DNA of 64,000 nucleotides from Lampropedia puyangensis (GTDB taxonomy: Bacteria; Pseudomonadota; Gammaproteobacteria; Burkholderiales; Burkholderiaceae_C): positions 62,001 to 126,000 of the forward strand of contig NZ_STFG01000006.1 in the NCBI RefSeq assembly GCF_004833285.1, read 5' to 3'. Position 1 is the stretch's first letter; the number at the start of each line of letters is the position of its first letter. Both the position numbers and the translations under genes were made by a program. Positions 46,962-55,221 of this stretch are shown here, one piece after another. The notes beneath the pieces are model-generated. The model had not been told where the DNA came from. It was given only the letters and a program-made list of their open reading frames with translations, and searched no databases.

Positions 46962-49535
46962 TCAGGATGCCAAGGCACGCAAATGCGCCAAAGCCTCGTC
47001 CACCTGATCGATTAGCACCAAACAAAAATCACCAGGCTGCAGTCGAGCCATAGCGTTATCGATAGCCAGCATTTCTCCGCGCACCTCTTGCATGTGCTTG
47101 ATACGGTAGCCGGGCTCTTGACTCACGCGCTCAAAGCCTTCTCGCAGCAATGCCATCACCTCTCCATCGCCACGCCCACGTTGCGCGGCATCTTGGTAAA
47201 TCACAGCCTCATCAAAGGCAGGCGCCAAAATACTGGTTTGCACGCGAATATCCTCGTCACGGCGATCCCCCGCGGCACTAATCACCAACACGCGCTTGCC
47301 CGCAGGTGTTGCCTCCACCACTTGCACCAAAGCCTTCATGGCATCAGGGTTGTGGCCATAGTCAGCCACCACAGTGGCGCCATTGATTTTGAAGGTATTG
47401 AACCGCCCCGGTGCATTGTCCGTATCGCTAGCAAAACTGGCCAATCCACGGCGAATGGTCTCTGAAGGCAAACCCAATGCCCATGCAGCAGCCACTGCGG
47501 CCATCACGTTCTGAACTTGGAAACCAATACGTCCATTGTTTGTAATAGGCACTTCAGCCAGAGGAATACTGTCGCGCCAAGCACCCTCAGTCGCAACAAT
47601 GGCTTCACCCTCCACAAACACGCTGCGCTTGCCTTGCGAGCGATGGGTCGCCAATACAGGATGGTGCTTGTCCATTGAGAAGAAAATAGTCTCAGCAGCC
47701 GTTGTGCTTGCCATCGCAGCCACCAAAGGATCTTGCGCATTGAGTACCGCATAGCCTTTGGGTGAAATGTTACGCACAGTCACCCCTTTGACCTGAGCCA
47801 GTTCCTCCACAGTTTGGATGTAATTCATCCCCAAGTGGTCGCCCTCGCCAATATTGGTTACCACGGCCACTTGGCTTTGGTCAAACCCCAAACCTTCACG
47901 CAGCACACCTCCGCGTGCAACTTCCAGCACAGCAGCATCCACCTCCGGATGGAACAATACATTGCGCGCACTGCGCGGGCCACTGCAATCGCCACTCTCG
48001 ATTTGTTTGCCGTTGATGTAAATCCCATCAGTATTGGTCATTCCCGTGGTAAGGCCATGCGCCATCAACAAATGCGCCAACAAACGTGAAGTCGTTGTCT
48101 TCCCATTTGTGCCAGTCACCGTAATCACAGGAATGCGTCCGTTGTTGCCCTTTTCAAACAGCATGTCAACCACATACTTGCCAATAGGGCGCGGCTGACC
48201 ATACGAAGGCGCCAAGTGCATGCGCAAACCAGGTGCGGCATTGACCTCTACCACCCCGCCAGCCTGCTCTTCCAATGGCCGCTCCACGGTTTCGCACACC
48301 ACATCCACACCACAAATATCCAACCCCACCATTTGCGCAGCGGCAATGGCGCTGGCTGCCACAGAAGGATGCACCGAATCCGTCACATCCGTCGCAGAAC
48401 CGCCCGTACTGAGGTTGGCGTTGTGTCGCAAAACAACCTTCTGGCCTTTTTCAGGAATGGCATCTGGCGTAAGTTGCTGCAAGTCCAACTGCCCCAAAGC
48501 AATATCGTCGAGACGAATGCGGGTTAAGGAGGTAGCATGGCCATCACTGCGACGCGGATCCAGATTCACCATATCGACCAACTGGCGCACCGTGTGCTCA
48601 CCATCGCCAATCACTTGTGGTGGCTCGCGCCGAGCCGCCGCTGCCAGACGATTACCCACCACCAACAAACGGTAATCATGGCCGGGCAAATACTTTTCCA
48701 CCATCACCACACCGTACTTGGCTGCAGCACGGTAAGCAGCATCCAGCTCTGCACGGGTGTTGATATTGACCGTCACCCCTTTGCCCTGATTGCCATCTTG
48801 AGGCTTGGCTACAACAGGCAACCCCACTTCTTGGGCCACGATCCACGCATCATCGGGCGACTCCACCGGACGACCAAACGGCACAGGAACACCTGCAGCC
48901 ATTAAAAGCTTTTTGGTGAGCTCCTTATCTTGCGCAATCGATTCAGCAACCGTGCTGGTGGCATCCACCTCTGCGGCCTGAATGCGGCGCTGCTTGGAGC
49001 CCCAACCAAACTGAACGAGCGAGCCGCGAGTGAGCCTGCGCATAGGAATACCCCGCGCCAAAGCCGCTTGGGCAATCGAGCCCGTACTGGGGCCAAGGCG
49101 CTCATGCTCATCCTTGTCTCGCAAGGCATGAATGACAGCCGCTGTATCAAAGGTCCGTCCATCCAATGCCGCACGCACCAAAGCCTCAGCATGCTCAATC
49201 GCCAAGCGCCCAACGGACTCTTCCTTGTACTCAACAATTACCTGAAAGACGCCCGCATCAGGCGTGGGCACTGTACGTGCAAAACCAATGGCGACCCCTG
49301 CTTCCTGCTGCAATACAGCTGCAGCAAACTGCAACACATGCGCCAAAGAGACTGGACCACTATCCTCTGCACCAGGAGTACCCACAGCAGGAAATAGTGC
49401 GCGCAAACGCGCTAAAAAGCCGTCCATCTGGTTGATATCCAACTCATCACTGGTGCACTGCACTGTGGTCAACATCGCTGTTTTACGAGTCCACAGATTA
49501 GGGCCACGCAAAGCACGGGTGCGCAAAATTTCCAT
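46962..49535 (-). CDS. cphA: Cyanophycin synthetase CphA
   Basis: 857 residues from ATG 49535 (MEILRTRALRGPNLWTRKTA), close to the cyanobacterial 873; an upstream start at 49604 adds 23 unlikely residues. The N-terminal domain (about 1-160), an ATP-grasp domain (about 165-450, with VVAKPQDGNQGKGVTVN and GVVEVNAAPGLRMHLA) and a C-terminal Mur-ligase-like domain (about 470-857, P-loop GTNGKTTTSR at 474-483, GEGDHLG) are all intact. The enzyme alternately adds Asp and Arg, with ATP, to make the storage polymer cyanophycin. It sits 226 bases after a CphA-like paralogue. Confidence 0.95.
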   Translation of the reverse strand: MEILRTRALRGPNLWTRKTAMLTTVQCTSDELDINQMDGFLARLRALFPAVGTPGAEDSGPVSLAHVLQFAAAVLQQEAGVAIGFARTVPTPDAGVFQVIVEYKEESVGRLAIEHAEALVRAALDGRTFDTAAVIHALRDKDEHERLGPSTGSIAQAALARGIPMRRLTRGSLVQFGWGSKQRRIQAAEVDATSTVAESIAQDKELTKKLLMAAGVPVPFGRPVESPDDAWIVAQEVGLPVVAKPQDGNQGKGVTVNINTRAELDAAYRAAAKYGVVMVEKYLPGHDYRLLVVGNRLAAAARREPPQVIGDGEHTVRQLVDMVNLDPRRSDGHATSLTRIRLDDIALGQLDLQQLTPDAIPEKGQKVVLRHNANLSTGGSATDVTDSVHPSVAASAIAAAQMVGLDICGVDVVCETVERPLEEQAGGVVEVNAAPGLRMHLAPSYGQPRPIGKYVVDMLFEKGNNGRIPVITVTGTNGKTTTSRLLAHLLMAHGLTTGMTNTDGIYINGKQIESGDCSGPRSARNVLFHPEVDAAVLEVARGGVLREGLGFDQSQVAVVTNIGEGDHLGMNYIQTVEELAQVKGVTVRNISPKGYAVLNAQDPLVAAMASTTAAETIFFSMDKHHPVLATHRSQGKRSVFVEGEAIVATEGAWRDSIPLAEVPITNNGRIGFQVQNVMAAVAAAWALGLPSETIRRGLASFASDTDNAPGRFNTFKINGATVVADYGHNPDAMKALVQVVEATPAGKRVLVISAAGDRRDEDIRVQTSILAPAFDEAVIYQDAAQRGRGDGEVMALLREGFERVSQEPGYRIKHMQEVRGEMLAIDNAMARLQPGDFCLVLIDQVDEALAHLRALAS

Positions 49536-49761: not shown

Positions 49762-52101
49762 TTATTCCACCACCCGATTCACTGGCTGCACCCCTGGCAA
49801 CCGCGGATCAAATGTACGAATGCCAGCACCAATGAGTTCTGGCGCAGTCCCCATGGCCCAAGCAATCGCAGTACTGGCAAGCAACTGCGTAGGCTGCAAC
49901 CCCAAGGTGCAAGCATGCTGACTCAAGGCCTGCCAGCCCTCAATGCATTCACTGCCGGACTCACTCCACAACTCAATCGCATCACCGCGCACCAACACCC
50001 AACGCGACCCCGCAGCACTATCCAGAGCAGCTGCGTCCTCACCATCGTCTTTACCCTGCTCTGTTTTATCGCGTGCCTGTTGCGCTTGCTGCGCCTTCCA
50101 ACGCGCAAAAGCCTCCGCATCGGTGGCATAAAACACCACACCGCCATCACTCAAGCGCGCCAAATCAGCCACTTGCGCATCGTCTGCATTGAGAATGGCC
50201 ACACCACTGGATAACACCACGTCCACTTGGGTGCGTAACACGCGGGTCATCTGGTCTTTTTCCTGAATATCAAAATCGACCAATTCTTCATGCCCCGCCA
50301 TGTCAGAAACGACACCGATATGGCAGCGGTCGTAGGACAAGCCCTCGGCCAAAATGCTCCGAGGGCTGTTTTCAATCACAGCGACCTCAATCTGCTGATT
50401 CATCAGCAAACGGTTGCCAGCCTCCCAATGGTCACTCTGGCGTCTATCCACGCAGCGCTTATCCAGAAAAATCCCTTGGCGACACGCCACCCCCGTGTGC
50501 TTGCCCGATAAATGCAAGAGCCAAGCCACTAGACGCGCAATGCCAGTTGTGCCATGGCGCCCTGAAATTCCAATAATCGGGATACGACCAGCCGCATCAA
50601 CCCCATCTTGCACAGCGGGGACTGGAAATAGATGTTCCACAATCGCCTGCCCCACCGGCTGAGGCGACCCCACAGCAGGTTTCAGGTGCATTAACAACCC
50701 CGGCCCTGCATTCACCTCAATAATCGCCCCACCTTGAGCGGCCAATGGCATAGCAATGTCTTGCGCCATCACATCCACGCCCGCAATATCCAATCCCACC
50801 ACTTTGGCCGCCAAAGCCGCTGCCTCAGCCGTTTCGGGATGCACATCGTCGGTGCAATCCACGACCAAAGTACTGCTACGCTGGATCAGCACCAGCTTAC
50901 CGCTGGCGGGCACACTTTCAGGCGTCAACTCTTGCGCTTTGAGTTCATGCAAGATATCCGCTTGTCGCACATCCACGGGCTGCAAACGGAACGTGGTACT
51001 CAAATCATCAGGTACCGGCTTCACGGCTGAACTGTCTTTGGCTGCGATCTGGGGCTTTCTGCGCGGGTCACTGTTGACTTGCTTGTCAATCAGCTGCGCC
51101 ACACTCGACTGACCATCGCCTGTGACCTTGAGTGATTCGCTTCGCGCTGCCGCAACCACCTTGCCACCAACTACTAATAGCCGATGCTCGTTGCCGGGCA
51201 CCATACGCTCAACCATGACTTCGTAGCCGTGTGGCTCTGCTGCTGTCCAGGCGGCCTCCACCTCTGCCTGCGTGCGTAGATTCACGAATACGCCACGGTT
51301 GCGCGACGCATCCGAAGGTTTTACCACCACTGGCACACCAATATCTTGTGCAGCCTCCCATGCCTCTGCCGGGCTTTCTGCCACTTGCCACTCAGGCACC
51401 GGCACACCACAGATCTGGATCAAGGTCTTAGTCATATCCTTGTCGTTGGCGATTCCTTCGGCAATGGCACTGGTATTGGCCGTCTCGGTGGTCCAAATCC
51501 GCTTTTGCGCCGAACCATAGCCTAACTGCACCAAATTGCCGTCATTGAGCCGGAACGCCGGGATACGCCGCTCAAACGCAGCATCCACAATGGCTGCAGT
51601 ACTCGGCCCCAAGTACCGCTCTTCGATCACCTCGCGAATAGCAGACACGGCAAGCGCCACATCAAAAGACTGGTCATTAATGGCCGCCATAATCAGACGA
51701 TGCCCCTCGCGCAATGCCACGCGCGCAACCTGCTCATCCTTGGCGCGAAACACCATTCGATAAACGCCATATTGAGACGTGCTTCGTGTTTGCCCAAATG
51801 CCGTAGGCATGCCCGCCAAATTGAGCAACTCAATAATGATGTGCTCCAGGATGTGGCCTGGCCAGGTGCCTTCATCAAGGCGCATCAAAAAACCGCCACG
51901 CTCGCCTACACCGCAATGGTGCTCGACCAAGCCTGGCAACCATGTCTTCAGGCGCTCAGGAAATCCGGGGATTTTGTTGGAAGGATACTCTTCCAGCTCC
52001 CCCAAATCCAACCAGACCTCCAGTACCTCGCGGTATGTCCAAATACTGGGGCCACGCAGGTAGTTCACGCGCAATAGCGCAATATCCTTGAATGTGGGCA
52101 T
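49762..52101 (-). CDS. CphA2-like cyanophycin synthetase with degenerate Mur domain
   Basis: 779 residues, shorter than its neighbour. The N-terminal and ATP-grasp domains align with CphA (YGSAQKRIWTTETANTSAIA, GGAIIEVNAGPGLLMHLKP), though the Gly-rich loop reads DASRNRGV instead of DGNQGKGV. In the Mur-ligase domain the P-loop lysine is lost: SGRHGTTGIAR (about 513-523) replaces GTNGKTTTSR. The usual EVARGG and GEGDHLG motifs are also changed (ENSPRS, AGHEEL). Loss of the Mur ATP site is known for CphA2 proteins, which polymerise beta-Asp-Arg dipeptides at a single active site. The pair cphA plus this gene also occurs in Ralstonia/Cupriavidus as cphA and cphA'. Confidence 0.88.
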   Translation of the reverse strand: MPTFKDIALLRVNYLRGPSIWTYREVLEVWLDLGELEEYPSNKIPGFPERLKTWLPGLVEHHCGVGERGGFLMRLDEGTWPGHILEHIIIELLNLAGMPTAFGQTRSTSQYGVYRMVFRAKDEQVARVALREGHRLIMAAINDQSFDVALAVSAIREVIEERYLGPSTAAIVDAAFERRIPAFRLNDGNLVQLGYGSAQKRIWTTETANTSAIAEGIANDKDMTKTLIQICGVPVPEWQVAESPAEAWEAAQDIGVPVVVKPSDASRNRGVFVNLRTQAEVEAAWTAAEPHGYEVMVERMVPGNEHRLLVVGGKVVAAARSESLKVTGDGQSSVAQLIDKQVNSDPRRKPQIAAKDSSAVKPVPDDLSTTFRLQPVDVRQADILHELKAQELTPESVPASGKLVLIQRSSTLVVDCTDDVHPETAEAAALAAKVVGLDIAGVDVMAQDIAMPLAAQGGAIIEVNAGPGLLMHLKPAVGSPQPVGQAIVEHLFPVPAVQDGVDAAGRIPIIGISGRHGTTGIARLVAWLLHLSGKHTGVACRQGIFLDKRCVDRRQSDHWEAGNRLLMNQQIEVAVIENSPRSILAEGLSYDRCHIGVVSDMAGHEELVDFDIQEKDQMTRVLRTQVDVVLSSGVAILNADDAQVADLARLSDGGVVFYATDAEAFARWKAQQAQQARDKTEQGKDDGEDAAALDSAAGSRWVLVRGDAIELWSESGSECIEGWQALSQHACTLGLQPTQLLASTAIAWAMGTAPELIGAGIRTFDPRLPGVQPVNRVVE

Positions 52102-52435: not shown

Positions 52436-54688
52436 ATGACTTCTGCTTCATCGCTTTCCACCCCCATCGCGGCCAACCAAACACCACCAGAACCTGTACT
52501 GGCACAGGGTGAAAACGTCTTGTGCGCACTCTTCGTTGACTTGAGTGAAGACTTGCGCTTTAGTCAAGCCAAACTCGTGCTGACAGACAAAGCCCTGCTG
52601 AGCTGGCAACAAGGTCAAACCACCTGGCAACGCTGGCCAGTTGATGGACAGCACCAACTGCGCTTTTCTGAGCACGCAGGGCTGGTCACACTTAGCCTGC
52701 ACACCCCAGCACAGCGTTTAGCAGTGTGGTACTTAACGCAACAAGGCAGCGTACAAACCCAACGGTTGGTCGAATGCTTTAAAGCCCATTTTCTAATGGA
52801 CATGCAAAGCGCCTTGCGCGTGCAAGACATGTCCACTTGCTCAAGCTGTGGCGCTGCCCTGCCTTTGGATGACTCACACTGCACGGCTTGCGCTGAGAAA
52901 GACGAAGAAAAAGAAGTCTCCAGCTGGGTCTTATTGCGCTTGCTGCGTTTTGCAAAACCGTATCGCAAGCTTATCGCCTTGGGTTTTACACTGACACTGG
53001 CCTCCACTGCCGCTACGCTGGTGCCTCCGTACCTGACGATCCCGCTGATGGATGACATTCTCATCCCTTACCAATCGGGCGCTCCGATTGACCCACATCT
53101 CGTCTCCTTTTACCTCGGAGCCTTACTGGTTTCTGCCATCGTGGCCTGGATTTTGGGCTGGAGCCGCACCTACGTCCTGTCACTGGTATCAGAGCGCATC
53201 GGCTCTGATTTGCGCACCACGACCTTCAACCATCTGATGCGCCTGTCGCTGGACTATTTCAGCAACCGCCGCACGGGGGACTTGATCGCGCGTATCGGCT
53301 CTGAAACGGATCGCATCAACACATTCCTTTCGCTGCACGCACTGGATTTCGCAACGGATGTGATCATGATCGTGATGACTGCCATCATCTTGATCACTAT
53401 TGATCCGACGCTGGCGTTGGCCGCCCTGCTTCCATTGCCGTTCATCTTCATTCTCATTCAGCGCGTGCGCGCAAAACTCAAAATAGGCTTTGAGCGTGCC
53501 ACCCGTGTGTGGTCACAAGTCACCAACGTTTTGGCCGATGCTATTCCCGGTGTGCGCGTAGTGAAAGCATTTGCCCAAGAAAGCCGTGAAGAAGCGCGCT
53601 TTGCCGAAGCCAACAGAGTCAATTTAGAAGCCAATGACAAAGTCAACCGTGTCTGGTCGCTGTTTTCACCCACCGTCACTCTATTGACTGAAGTTGGCAC
53701 CTTGGTGGTATGGGCATTCGGCATCTGGCTGGTTGCAAAAAACGGCATCACCGTTGGTGTGCTTACCGCTTTTATTGCCTATATCGGCCGCTTTTACACA
53801 CGCCTTGACTCGATGAGCCGCATCGTCAACGTGACGCAACGCGCTGCCGCAGGGGCCAAGCGTATTTTCGATATTCTCGATCATGTTTCCACCGTGCCGG
53901 AGCCAGCCAAGCCTGTTGCAATGAACGATGTCCAAGGCCGCATCAGTCTGAAAAACTTGGGGTTTCGCTATGGCAGCCGCCAGGTATTGAAAAACCTCAA
54001 CCTTGACATTCAACCAGGCGAAATGATCGGGCTGGTTGGGCACAGTGGCTCAGGCAAGTCCACCTTAGTGAACCTGATTTGCCGCTTTTACGATGTCAGT
54101 GAAGGCGCCATCCTGTGCGATGAAGTCGATATTAGGCAAATCGCTGTCTCAGACTACCGCCGCCACATTGGTTTGGTGCTTCAAGAGCCGTTTCTGTTTT
54201 TTGGTACCGTGGCAGAAAACATTGCCTACGGCAAGCCCGATGCGACAAGAGAAGAAATCATTGCCGCAGCACGGGCCGCACACGCACACGACTTCATCCT
54301 GCGCCTACCCCACGGCTACGACTCATTGGTTGGTGAACGCGGGCAAAGCCTCTCCGGTGGTGAGCGCCAGCGTATCAGTATTGCGCGCGCCTTGCTGATT
54401 GACCCGGCCATCCTCATCATGGACGAAGCCACCTCAGCGGTGGATACCGAAACTGAAAAAGAAATTCAAAAAGCACTGGACAACCTTGTACAAGGGCGCA
54501 CCACCATTGCCGTAGCGCACCGCCTCTCAACATTGCGCAAGGCCAACCGTTTGGTGGTCATGGACCGTGGTGTCATCGTTGAGGTGGGCGGCCATCAAGA
54601 ACTAATGGATAAACAAGGGGCCTATTGGAGGCTCTACCAAGCCCAGCAGCGTCGCAACGAACAACAAGACACGGAGATCCTCGCATGA
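52436..54688 (+). CDS. ABC exporter with N-terminal zinc ribbon, cyanophycin-linked
   Basis: A 750-residue half-exporter. The first 160 residues are an unusual N-terminal domain ending in a zinc-ribbon-like CSSC...CTAC (C135, C138, C149, C152). Six membrane segments (about 165-445) and an ATP-binding domain follow, with GHSGSGKSTLVN, LSGGERQRISIARAL, and IMDEATSAVDTE. It overlaps the DUF1854 gene by four bases. Its location next to two cyanophycin synthetases matches an ABC/DUF1854 pair that I recall being called cyanophycin-metabolism-associated; I cannot verify this here. Substrate is unknown; no ribosome binding site stands out before ATG 52436. Confidence 0.85.
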   Translation: MTSASSLSTPIAANQTPPEPVLAQGENVLCALFVDLSEDLRFSQAKLVLTDKALLSWQQGQTTWQRWPVDGQHQLRFSEHAGLVTLSLHTPAQRLAVWYLTQQGSVQTQRLVECFKAHFLMDMQSALRVQDMSTCSSCGAALPLDDSHCTACAEKDEEKEVSSWVLLRLLRFAKPYRKLIALGFTLTLASTAATLVPPYLTIPLMDDILIPYQSGAPIDPHLVSFYLGALLVSAIVAWILGWSRTYVLSLVSERIGSDLRTTTFNHLMRLSLDYFSNRRTGDLIARIGSETDRINTFLSLHALDFATDVIMIVMTAIILITIDPTLALAALLPLPFIFILIQRVRAKLKIGFERATRVWSQVTNVLADAIPGVRVVKAFAQESREEARFAEANRVNLEANDKVNRVWSLFSPTVTLLTEVGTLVVWAFGIWLVAKNGITVGVLTAFIAYIGRFYTRLDSMSRIVNVTQRAAAGAKRIFDILDHVSTVPEPAKPVAMNDVQGRISLKNLGFRYGSRQVLKNLNLDIQPGEMIGLVGHSGSGKSTLVNLICRFYDVSEGAILCDEVDIRQIAVSDYRRHIGLVLQEPFLFFGTVAENIAYGKPDATREEIIAAARAAHAHDFILRLPHGYDSLVGERGQSLSGGERQRISIARALLIDPAILIMDEATSAVDTETEKEIQKALDNLVQGRTTIAVAHRLSTLRKANRLVVMDRGVIVEVGGHQELMDKQGAYWRLYQAQQRRNEQQDTEILA

Positions 54689-55221
54689 CAACCCCTGCAC
54701 ACCCGCACCTGCGCTATTTGCCTGAGCAGGTTGTTCTTCTGGGGCCCAATGCGACCGAAGAACAACTCACGCGTAATGCGCATGGACAATTGGTCCTAAG
54801 CATTCCGGGTGAAGCTGAGCCCACTGCCGTCCAGCCGGTTGTGGCTTTCGCGCTAACCGCACCGCGCCAGAGTATTTCTCTGGTGGACAACCGTGGTAAA
54901 GAGCGCGGCTATATTGAGCACCTGGACCAGCTCCCGCCCGCCTGTAAGGCTGCGGTTGAGCAAGCCTTGGCTCTGCGCGAATTCATTCCAACCATCACTG
55001 CCATCACGGCAGTTGACAGCTTTTCAACCCCTAGCATTTGGCACATTGAAACCGATCGCGGCAGTACCGAATTGCGGCTGCAAAGCGAAGACGACATCCG
55101 CAAACTCGGTGACGAAGGCAAAACCTTGCGTATCACTGATAAGAACAGCCTGCAATACCAGATCCCGGATATTGAAGCCTTACCCAAAGCTTCGCGTAAA
55201 TTGCTGATTCGATTTATTTGA
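54685..55221 (+). CDS. DUF1854 domain-containing protein
   Basis: 178 residues from ATG 54685, which overlaps the ABC exporter stop (ATGA), so translation is coupled; the longer frame from 54625 lies inside that gene. The core FALTAPRQSISLVDNRGKE, then LREFIPTITAITAVDSFSTP and WHIETDRGSTELRLQ, are typical of DUF1854. It has no signal peptide. The family has no known function; being coupled to the exporter and near cphA suggests a part in cyanophycin handling, for example as a soluble partner. This is inference. Confidence 0.8.
   Translation: MTTPAHPHLRYLPEQVVLLGPNATEEQLTRNAHGQLVLSIPGEAEPTAVQPVVAFALTAPRQSISLVDNRGKERGYIEHLDQLPPACKAAVEQALALREFIPTITAITAVDSFSTPSIWHIETDRGSTELRLQSEDDIRKLGDEGKTLRITDKNSLQYQIPDIEALPKASRKLLIRFI

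Follow-up and report, generated by a model that had tools for sequence, protein, structure and literature searches.

A cyanophycin synthetase paralogue that keeps the peptidase site next to a CphA that has lost it: a possible division of active sites in Burkholderiales

The cyanophycin synthetase CphA1 has a third active site in addition to its ATP-grasp (G) and Mur-type (M) domains. Its N domain carries a metallopeptidase motif, Cx19HxxEH, and acts as an endo-cyanophycinase that cuts cyanophycin into primers; mutation of H57, C59, R70, H79 or E82 abolished or reduced primer-independent activity (PMC9262961). The same source finds the motif in 83% of nr70 CphA1 sequences and shows that the site can act from a separate chain: SuCphA1 with inactivated G and M domains, added in trans, rendered the primer-dependent TmCphA1 primer-independent, and an SuCphA1 heterodimer with the N site on the other protomer equalled its control when primer was supplied and fell somewhat below it when none was. 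In betaproteobacteria with cphA1 a cyanophycinase can seldom be recognised (2.8% of 903 such genomes in PMC10206079; its rarity is also reported in PMC5178258 and PMC5670224). Paired synthetase genes from such organisms are already in print: an adjacent pair of homologues in Sideroxydans (PMC5178258), cphA in two copies, accompanied by an ABC transporter and not by cphB, in the activated-sludge 'Group 1' (as given in the available text of PMC10687191), two copies with no cyanophycinase in Herminiimonas (likewise for PMC5670224) and two homologues in Ralstonia eutropha H16 (PMC11362209, citing Adames 2013). What is new here is the proposed division of labour between the copies; in the accessible text of the open-licence literature we found no published division of active sites between two cphA genes.

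We analysed a 64,000-nucleotide stretch of the Lampropedia puyangensis genome (contig NZ_STFG01000006.1, positions 62,001 to 126,000), here called the window. It holds a CphA paralogue, P (CphA-prime), directly upstream of a partner CphA on the same strand, and two divergently placed genes. The features are as follows.

52436-54688, plus strand: cyanophycin metabolism-associated ABC transporter, divergent from the pair (NF052233, 1293 bits, cut-off 880)
54685-55221, plus strand: cyanophycin metabolism-associated DUF1854 protein (NF052234, 179.7 bits, cut-off 150)
49762-52101, minus strand: paralogue P, ATG start, 779 aa (ORF list)
51622-52101, minus strand: N domain of P, residues 1-160, metallopeptidase-like (Pfam PF18921, 128.5 bits)
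51841-51915, minus strand: Cx19HxxEH motif of P (C63, H83, E86, H87), translation CGVGERGGFLMRLDEGTWPGHILEH
51292-51321, minus strand: ATP-grasp P-loop of P, KPSDASRNRG (CphA1 H267 to R, G268 to N)
50854-50889, minus strand: site of the deleted Asp-binding loop in P, LIQRSSTLVVDC against ANLSTGG in CphA1
50533-50562, minus strand: degenerate Mur P-loop of P, GRHGTTGIAR (window translation)
46962-49535, minus strand: partner CphA, ATG start, 857 aa, without the N motif and with its Mur site and ATP-grasp ligands intact

The partner start was placed at ATG 49535, which has a plausible ribosome site by eye; the ORF list begins at GTG 49604. P scores 896 bits against the NF010623 cyanophycin synthetase subfamily (cut-off 877) and 607.5 bits against the TIGR02068 equivalog, below its cut-off of 850. 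P and its partner are the only CphA-type proteins in the window's genome at E <= 1e-100. The nearest named relatives of P, from Lampropedia, Vandammella, Corticibacter, Allofranklinella and a Comamonadaceae MAG, are 74-88% identical over the best segment. Its best match among solved structures is SuCphA1 (E 9.8e-120); PDB entries 8fxh and 7ta5 are presumably CphA2, and 7lgn presumably TmCphA1. An AlphaFold prediction for P of the window and seven close relatives reached a mean pLDDT of 44.6 and a pTM of 0.29 and carries no structural claim. Promoter and terminator scans gave about as many sites as shuffled sequences did. The ABC transporter of the window has a Cys-rich N-terminal stretch and is exporter-like by family.

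The original prediction held that both ligase P-loops of P are altered, and both changes are real: GRHGTTGIAR stands where the adjacent CphA reads GTNGKTTTSR, and DASRNRGV belongs to the ATP-grasp loop, where P has KPSDASRNRG and the adjacent CphA reads KPQDGNQGKG. Its claim that other Mur-ligase motifs are changed was also borne out, with the catalytic D585 and H586 of SuCphA1 aligning to E605 and E606 of P. In the same alignment the Mur P-loop lysine becomes T518 and H267 becomes R267. The Asp-binding site of the G domain, whose role, like that of H267, was established in TeCphA1 (PMC9427784), is dismantled in P: N394 is replaced by T411, S396 is deleted, R323 becomes S321 and R458 becomes L470. 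A Mur_ligase domain was not matched in P by Pfam at E 0.001, and the C-terminal Mur lid is missing. The deletion in the Asp-binding loop, the loss of the lid and the N motif were all absent from the original prediction, which was right about the damaged ligase sites, and right to ask whether P is active or regulatory, but overlooked the third active site.

These changes are common to the named relatives and so are not due to chance or sequencing error. GRHGTTGIAR occurs in six of the seven named relatives (Lampropedia hyalina has GERHGSGIAR), DASRNRG in six of seven and DSSRNRG in one of the seven with a full-length match, and Arg at 267 with Asn at 268 in P of the window and all seven.

To place P in a wider sample, NF010623 was searched (E <= 1e-100) in genomes with a completeness of 90% or more. 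Matches were found in 20/370 genomes of a class sample, 196/299 of the window's own family and 131/349 of its own order, three samples that overlap. From among the matches listed, which stop short of the lowest scores and so under-represent weak scorers, 120 stretches were fetched, mostly one per genus. The resulting 110 P comprise 102 from these stretches, the seven named relatives and the window; they are compared with 109 adjacent partners (L217 is a P without a partner within its fetched stretch) and 17 lone CphA. Matches below 230 bits were excluded from the alignment, and L159, a partner truncated by the end of its contig, from the lone group; L218, a weak ATP-grasp match from the named-genome scan, was dropped and the seven full-length relatives kept. 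L245 of genome G679, a weak match with the N motif absent, was not counted as CphA. Further loci were checked by pattern alone and stand outside the counts of 110 and 109. One genome (G1005, 80% complete) has a partner without P, and another of the same genus (G1001) has neither. A genome of the window's genus carries a second, diverged P/partner pair beside the main one (G537:C16:23876-28286; L228, L246).

The N domain behaves quite differently from the ligase sites. In the window, P reads C-GVGERGGFLMRLDEGTWPG-HILEH, an exact Cx19HxxEH, while neither the cysteine loop nor the second histidine survives in its partner; PF18921 (Cyanophycin_syn domain) scores 128.5 bits in P and 38.4 bits in the partner, which has clear Mur domains. 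Across the examined loci, drawn from among the matches listed, the strict motif is found in 110/110 P and 0/109 partners. With relaxed spacing it is still found in none of the 109 partners, and is present in 16/17 lone CphA, in all five further lone proteins (L236, L238, L239, L240 and L243) and in L016; in three partners an HxxEH lies somewhere among residues 1-160, with the cysteine missing. Nine residues that PMC9262961 names as belonging to the active site or as contacts (H57, C59, F67, R70, H79, E82, H83, E87 and Y110) do not vary among the 110 P, and 23 of the 26 invariant N-domain sites of P have the SuCphA1 residue. Some substrate contacts of the SuCphA1 N domain do differ: E90 is Asn in 90/110 P, as in 9/17 lone CphA, and Y14 and A96 vary. 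Of the three active sites, the N site alone has its catalytic residues conserved in every P examined.

The ligase sites of P vary between lineages. Alignment columns 396-400 are gapped in all 110 P, R323 is Gly in 99 and R458 is Leu in 107. The Mur P-loop together with D585/H586 is retained in nine of the 110 (eight full length, one shorter); the Asp loop is already absent from these nine, so the loss of Asp binding probably preceded that of the Mur site. H267 is kept in 96/110 P and the six ATP/Mg ligands of the G domain are complete in 108/110. Two P from outside the order (L166 and L167) have lost some ATP/Mg ligands and kept all nine N residues.

Could P then be a CphA2-like dipeptide polymerase, in which the G domain re-ligates beta-Asp-Arg or its oligomers, the N site is an accessory and the clade of the window is a late, weakened form? 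The pattern of loss is what such an enzyme might show, in that the Asp-recognition side (loop 396-400, R323, R458) is gone and the ATP/acyl-phosphate side is kept in nearly all P, and CphA2 is likewise described without the Mur P-loop and lid (PMC9427784). Against this, the N motif present in P is reported absent from CphA2 in the available text of PMC9262961, H267 and G268 are replaced by Arg and Asn in the window and the seven named relatives, and on the tree of the 110 P the residue at 267 changes six times and the N tetrad never. We therefore consider this reading unlikely for the group, although dipeptide ligation of the CphA2 kind is possible for those P that conserve the ATP side of the G domain and less so for the window's clade, whose G loop is altered. 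The label 'CphA2-like' in the original prediction fits the lost Mur P-loop and lid; as a statement of membership it fails on the N motif, going by the CphA2 features described in the accessible text of PMC9262961, and we rejected P as a CphA2 on that ground. The likeness to CphA2 appears to have arisen inside the P group, since nine of the 110 P are Mur-intact and P is sister to the neighbouring CphAs, in a tree that has no CphA2 row.

That tree, of G domains, was built from 26 of the 110 P, 26 of the 109 partners, 22 lone CphA and SuCphA1. P and partner each form one clade and are mutually sister (SH-aLRT 93, not starred), and in 109 of 109 pairs P lies upstream of the partner on the same strand. 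The next branch outside the two is L238, a long branch from a genome of the same family. L238 (genome G545) is a lone CphA with the motifs of all three sites, a G loop with Gln and Lys like that of the pair partners, and a cyanophycinase gene just upstream. It may possibly be an image of the state before duplication. At two other lone-CphA loci (L152:7756-9510, plus strand; L170:3132-4841, minus strand) a neighbouring protein matches the Mur part of CphA alone; these proteins have 585 and 570 aa and reach 326 and 316 bits against TIGR02068, under its cut-off, and about 180 N-terminal residues have no assignment. Several lone loci are alike in this respect.

We also compared the rates of change in the three domains. 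For P of the window against relatives (seven comparisons), dN was 0.058-0.088 in N and 0.12-0.31 in M, and N was the lowest domain in six of the seven; the exception was L211, with 0.062 in G and 0.067 in N. In the partner the order is reversed, N (0.12-0.37) being highest in six of six comparisons, with 0.04-0.19 in M and 0.03-0.12 in G. On the tree of the 110 P we counted six changes of H267, six of the complete Mur site and none of the N tetrad, in counts that do not separate gain from loss. dN/dS of P was about 0.02-0.10 where computable, values that are rough because dS was saturated or undefined in several comparisons.

These data bear on two readings in which P has no catalytic role. 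With two active sites and the C-terminal lid gone, P might be a duplicate in decay that is turning into a pseudogene, and the search tables flag single stops in a small number of P matches, for the most part close to the end. However, purifying selection, an open P in each of the 109 fetched pair loci and in the window, and the invariance of the N domain make this hardly credible, and we disfavoured it on selection and wide retention. Alternatively, P could be an inert scaffold or regulator that binds polymer and, in a mixed oligomer, the partner, which it would tune with all its own active sites idle. Damage to both ligase sites and a tandem order fixed in 109/109 pairs are compatible with this, and strong purifying selection can act without catalysis. 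Yet it is not evident why a mere scaffold should preserve every metal ligand, the general base and the second shell in 110/110 proteins while other catalytic residues change repeatedly, and we judge it very unlikely.

In the partner the ATP-grasp ligands and the Mur site are intact. K220, K261, R309, R323, N394, S396, D431, E450, N452, R458, K499, T500, E558, D585 and H586 are kept in 109/109 partners, as is the stretch S396-G399. The G site is otherwise strongly conserved but has Gln in place of the catalytic His267 in 107/109 (KPQDGNQGKG in the window), and position 215, which binds polymer, is mostly Ser (78/109) or Ala (22/109). Ala at 267 inactivates the G domain of SuCphA1 and a position-215 Ala mutant of TeCphA1 was impaired; competence of the partner is therefore not certain. 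In one genome the gene for the partner is spread over two overlapping frames, next to an intact P (G372:C1:4012775-4015335; L242, L250), through a frameshift or a sequencing error.

The cyanophycinase family TIGR02069 (E 1e-10) was matched in 6/80 pair genomes, 80 of the 103 having been searched, versus 22/23 genomes with a lone CphA. The contrast holds by stratum (pair versus lone: own family 2/29 versus 4/4, rest of the order 4/49 versus 5/5, outside the order 0/2 versus 13/14). It is based on few gene-level origins, and in lone-type clusters the cyanophycinase gene is often found near cphA; Fisher tests on the contrast ignore the non-independence of genomes. The sole lone genome without TIGR02069 is G203; its protein, L180, lacks the N motif and scores under the family cut-off, and for these reasons may not be a true CphA1. 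In the whole genome of the window, P included, TIGR02069 had no match at E 1e-10. A relative of the window's ABC transporter (tblastn >400 bits) was found at 104/109 pair loci, the window not counted, versus 0/17 lone loci, and a tblastn match to the DUF1854 protein at 60/109 versus 0/17.

Motif complementarity, gene order, tree grouping and co-occurrence with the absence of cyanophycinase lead us to favour, with moderate confidence, a three-site CphA1 split after tandem duplication, in which P is a trans-acting peptidase subunit and the partner the polymerase. An ancestral CphA1 would have had an endo-cyanophycinase in N, an ATP-grasp site adding Asp in G and a Mur-type site adding Arg in M, and its tandem duplication would probably date from early in Burkholderiales. 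In the downstream copy G would then have retained its Asp-binding and ATP-ligand residues and M its catalytic ones, with N lost; having no N site, this copy should need primers, by analogy with TmCphA1. The upstream copy, P, would have kept N and lost Asp binding in G, with M lost in most lineages and here, and with the G loop additionally lost in the window's genus and near relatives. P is predicted to associate with its partner in a mixed oligomer, or to act in trans, and to cut partner-made cyanophycin into short primers as a zinc peptidase. It may also be the depolymerising enzyme, as a cyanophycinase can seldom be recognised in these genomes. Because most P retain H267 and the ATP/Mg ligands, the family as a whole may still carry out a G-domain reaction that this split leaves unexplained.

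Among the points against this split, a review (PMC8560796) states that overexpressing the genes of R. eutropha H16, whether in that host or in E. coli, gave no cyanophycin, and PMC11362209 likewise reports none detectable, although the R. eutropha host has both homologues. A further, speculative reading, which we hold to be quite unlikely, is that the pair, the ABC transporter and the DUF1854 protein form a distinct cyanophycin system, with the partner as polymerase, P as a dedicated cutting subunit in place of cyanophycinase and an ABC protein of exporter type, in which short beta-Asp-Arg oligomers are turned over or exported, not stored as granules. It would fit the reported failure to find cyanophycin in R. 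eutropha, and also the window's genome, in which no IaaA match and no IadA match above cut-off was found; the latter two results also weigh against the favoured split.

The split of CphA1 between P and its partner offers a testable answer to the rarity of recognisable cyanophycinase in cphA1-bearing betaproteobacteria and to the missing polymer in R. eutropha despite its two synthetase homologues. With cutting separate from building, each could be regulated by expression, as a single CphA1 (PMC9262961) cannot be. It also suggests that attempts to produce polymer with betaproteobacterial enzymes should co-express both genes.

The feature is real and widespread, and is a variant of a known enzyme. 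P shares with CphA1 (SuCphA1, PDB 7lg5/7txu) the N-G-M order and identical N-domain catalytic residues; unlike CphA1, it has lost the Asp-binding loop, R323, R458, H267, the Mur catalytic residues and the lid, and the N function that lies within one protein in CphA1 lies on a separate gene here. With CphA2, the cyanobacterial dipeptide polymerase, it has in common the degenerate Mur P-loop and missing lid, but unlike CphA2 as described it keeps the N motif, adjoins its own CphA and, here, has no G catalytic His. The partner resembles the primer-dependent TmCphA1 in having no N motif (PMC9262961), whereas the TmCphA1 G loop keeps H267 and the Burkholderiales partner has Gln. The cyanophycinases CphB/CphE (TIGR02069) are a different family from P, with cyanophycin cleavage as the proposed overlapping task. 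The locus itself resembles the published betaproteobacterial pairs in its adjacent cphA genes, its ABC transporter and a genome with no TIGR02069 match.
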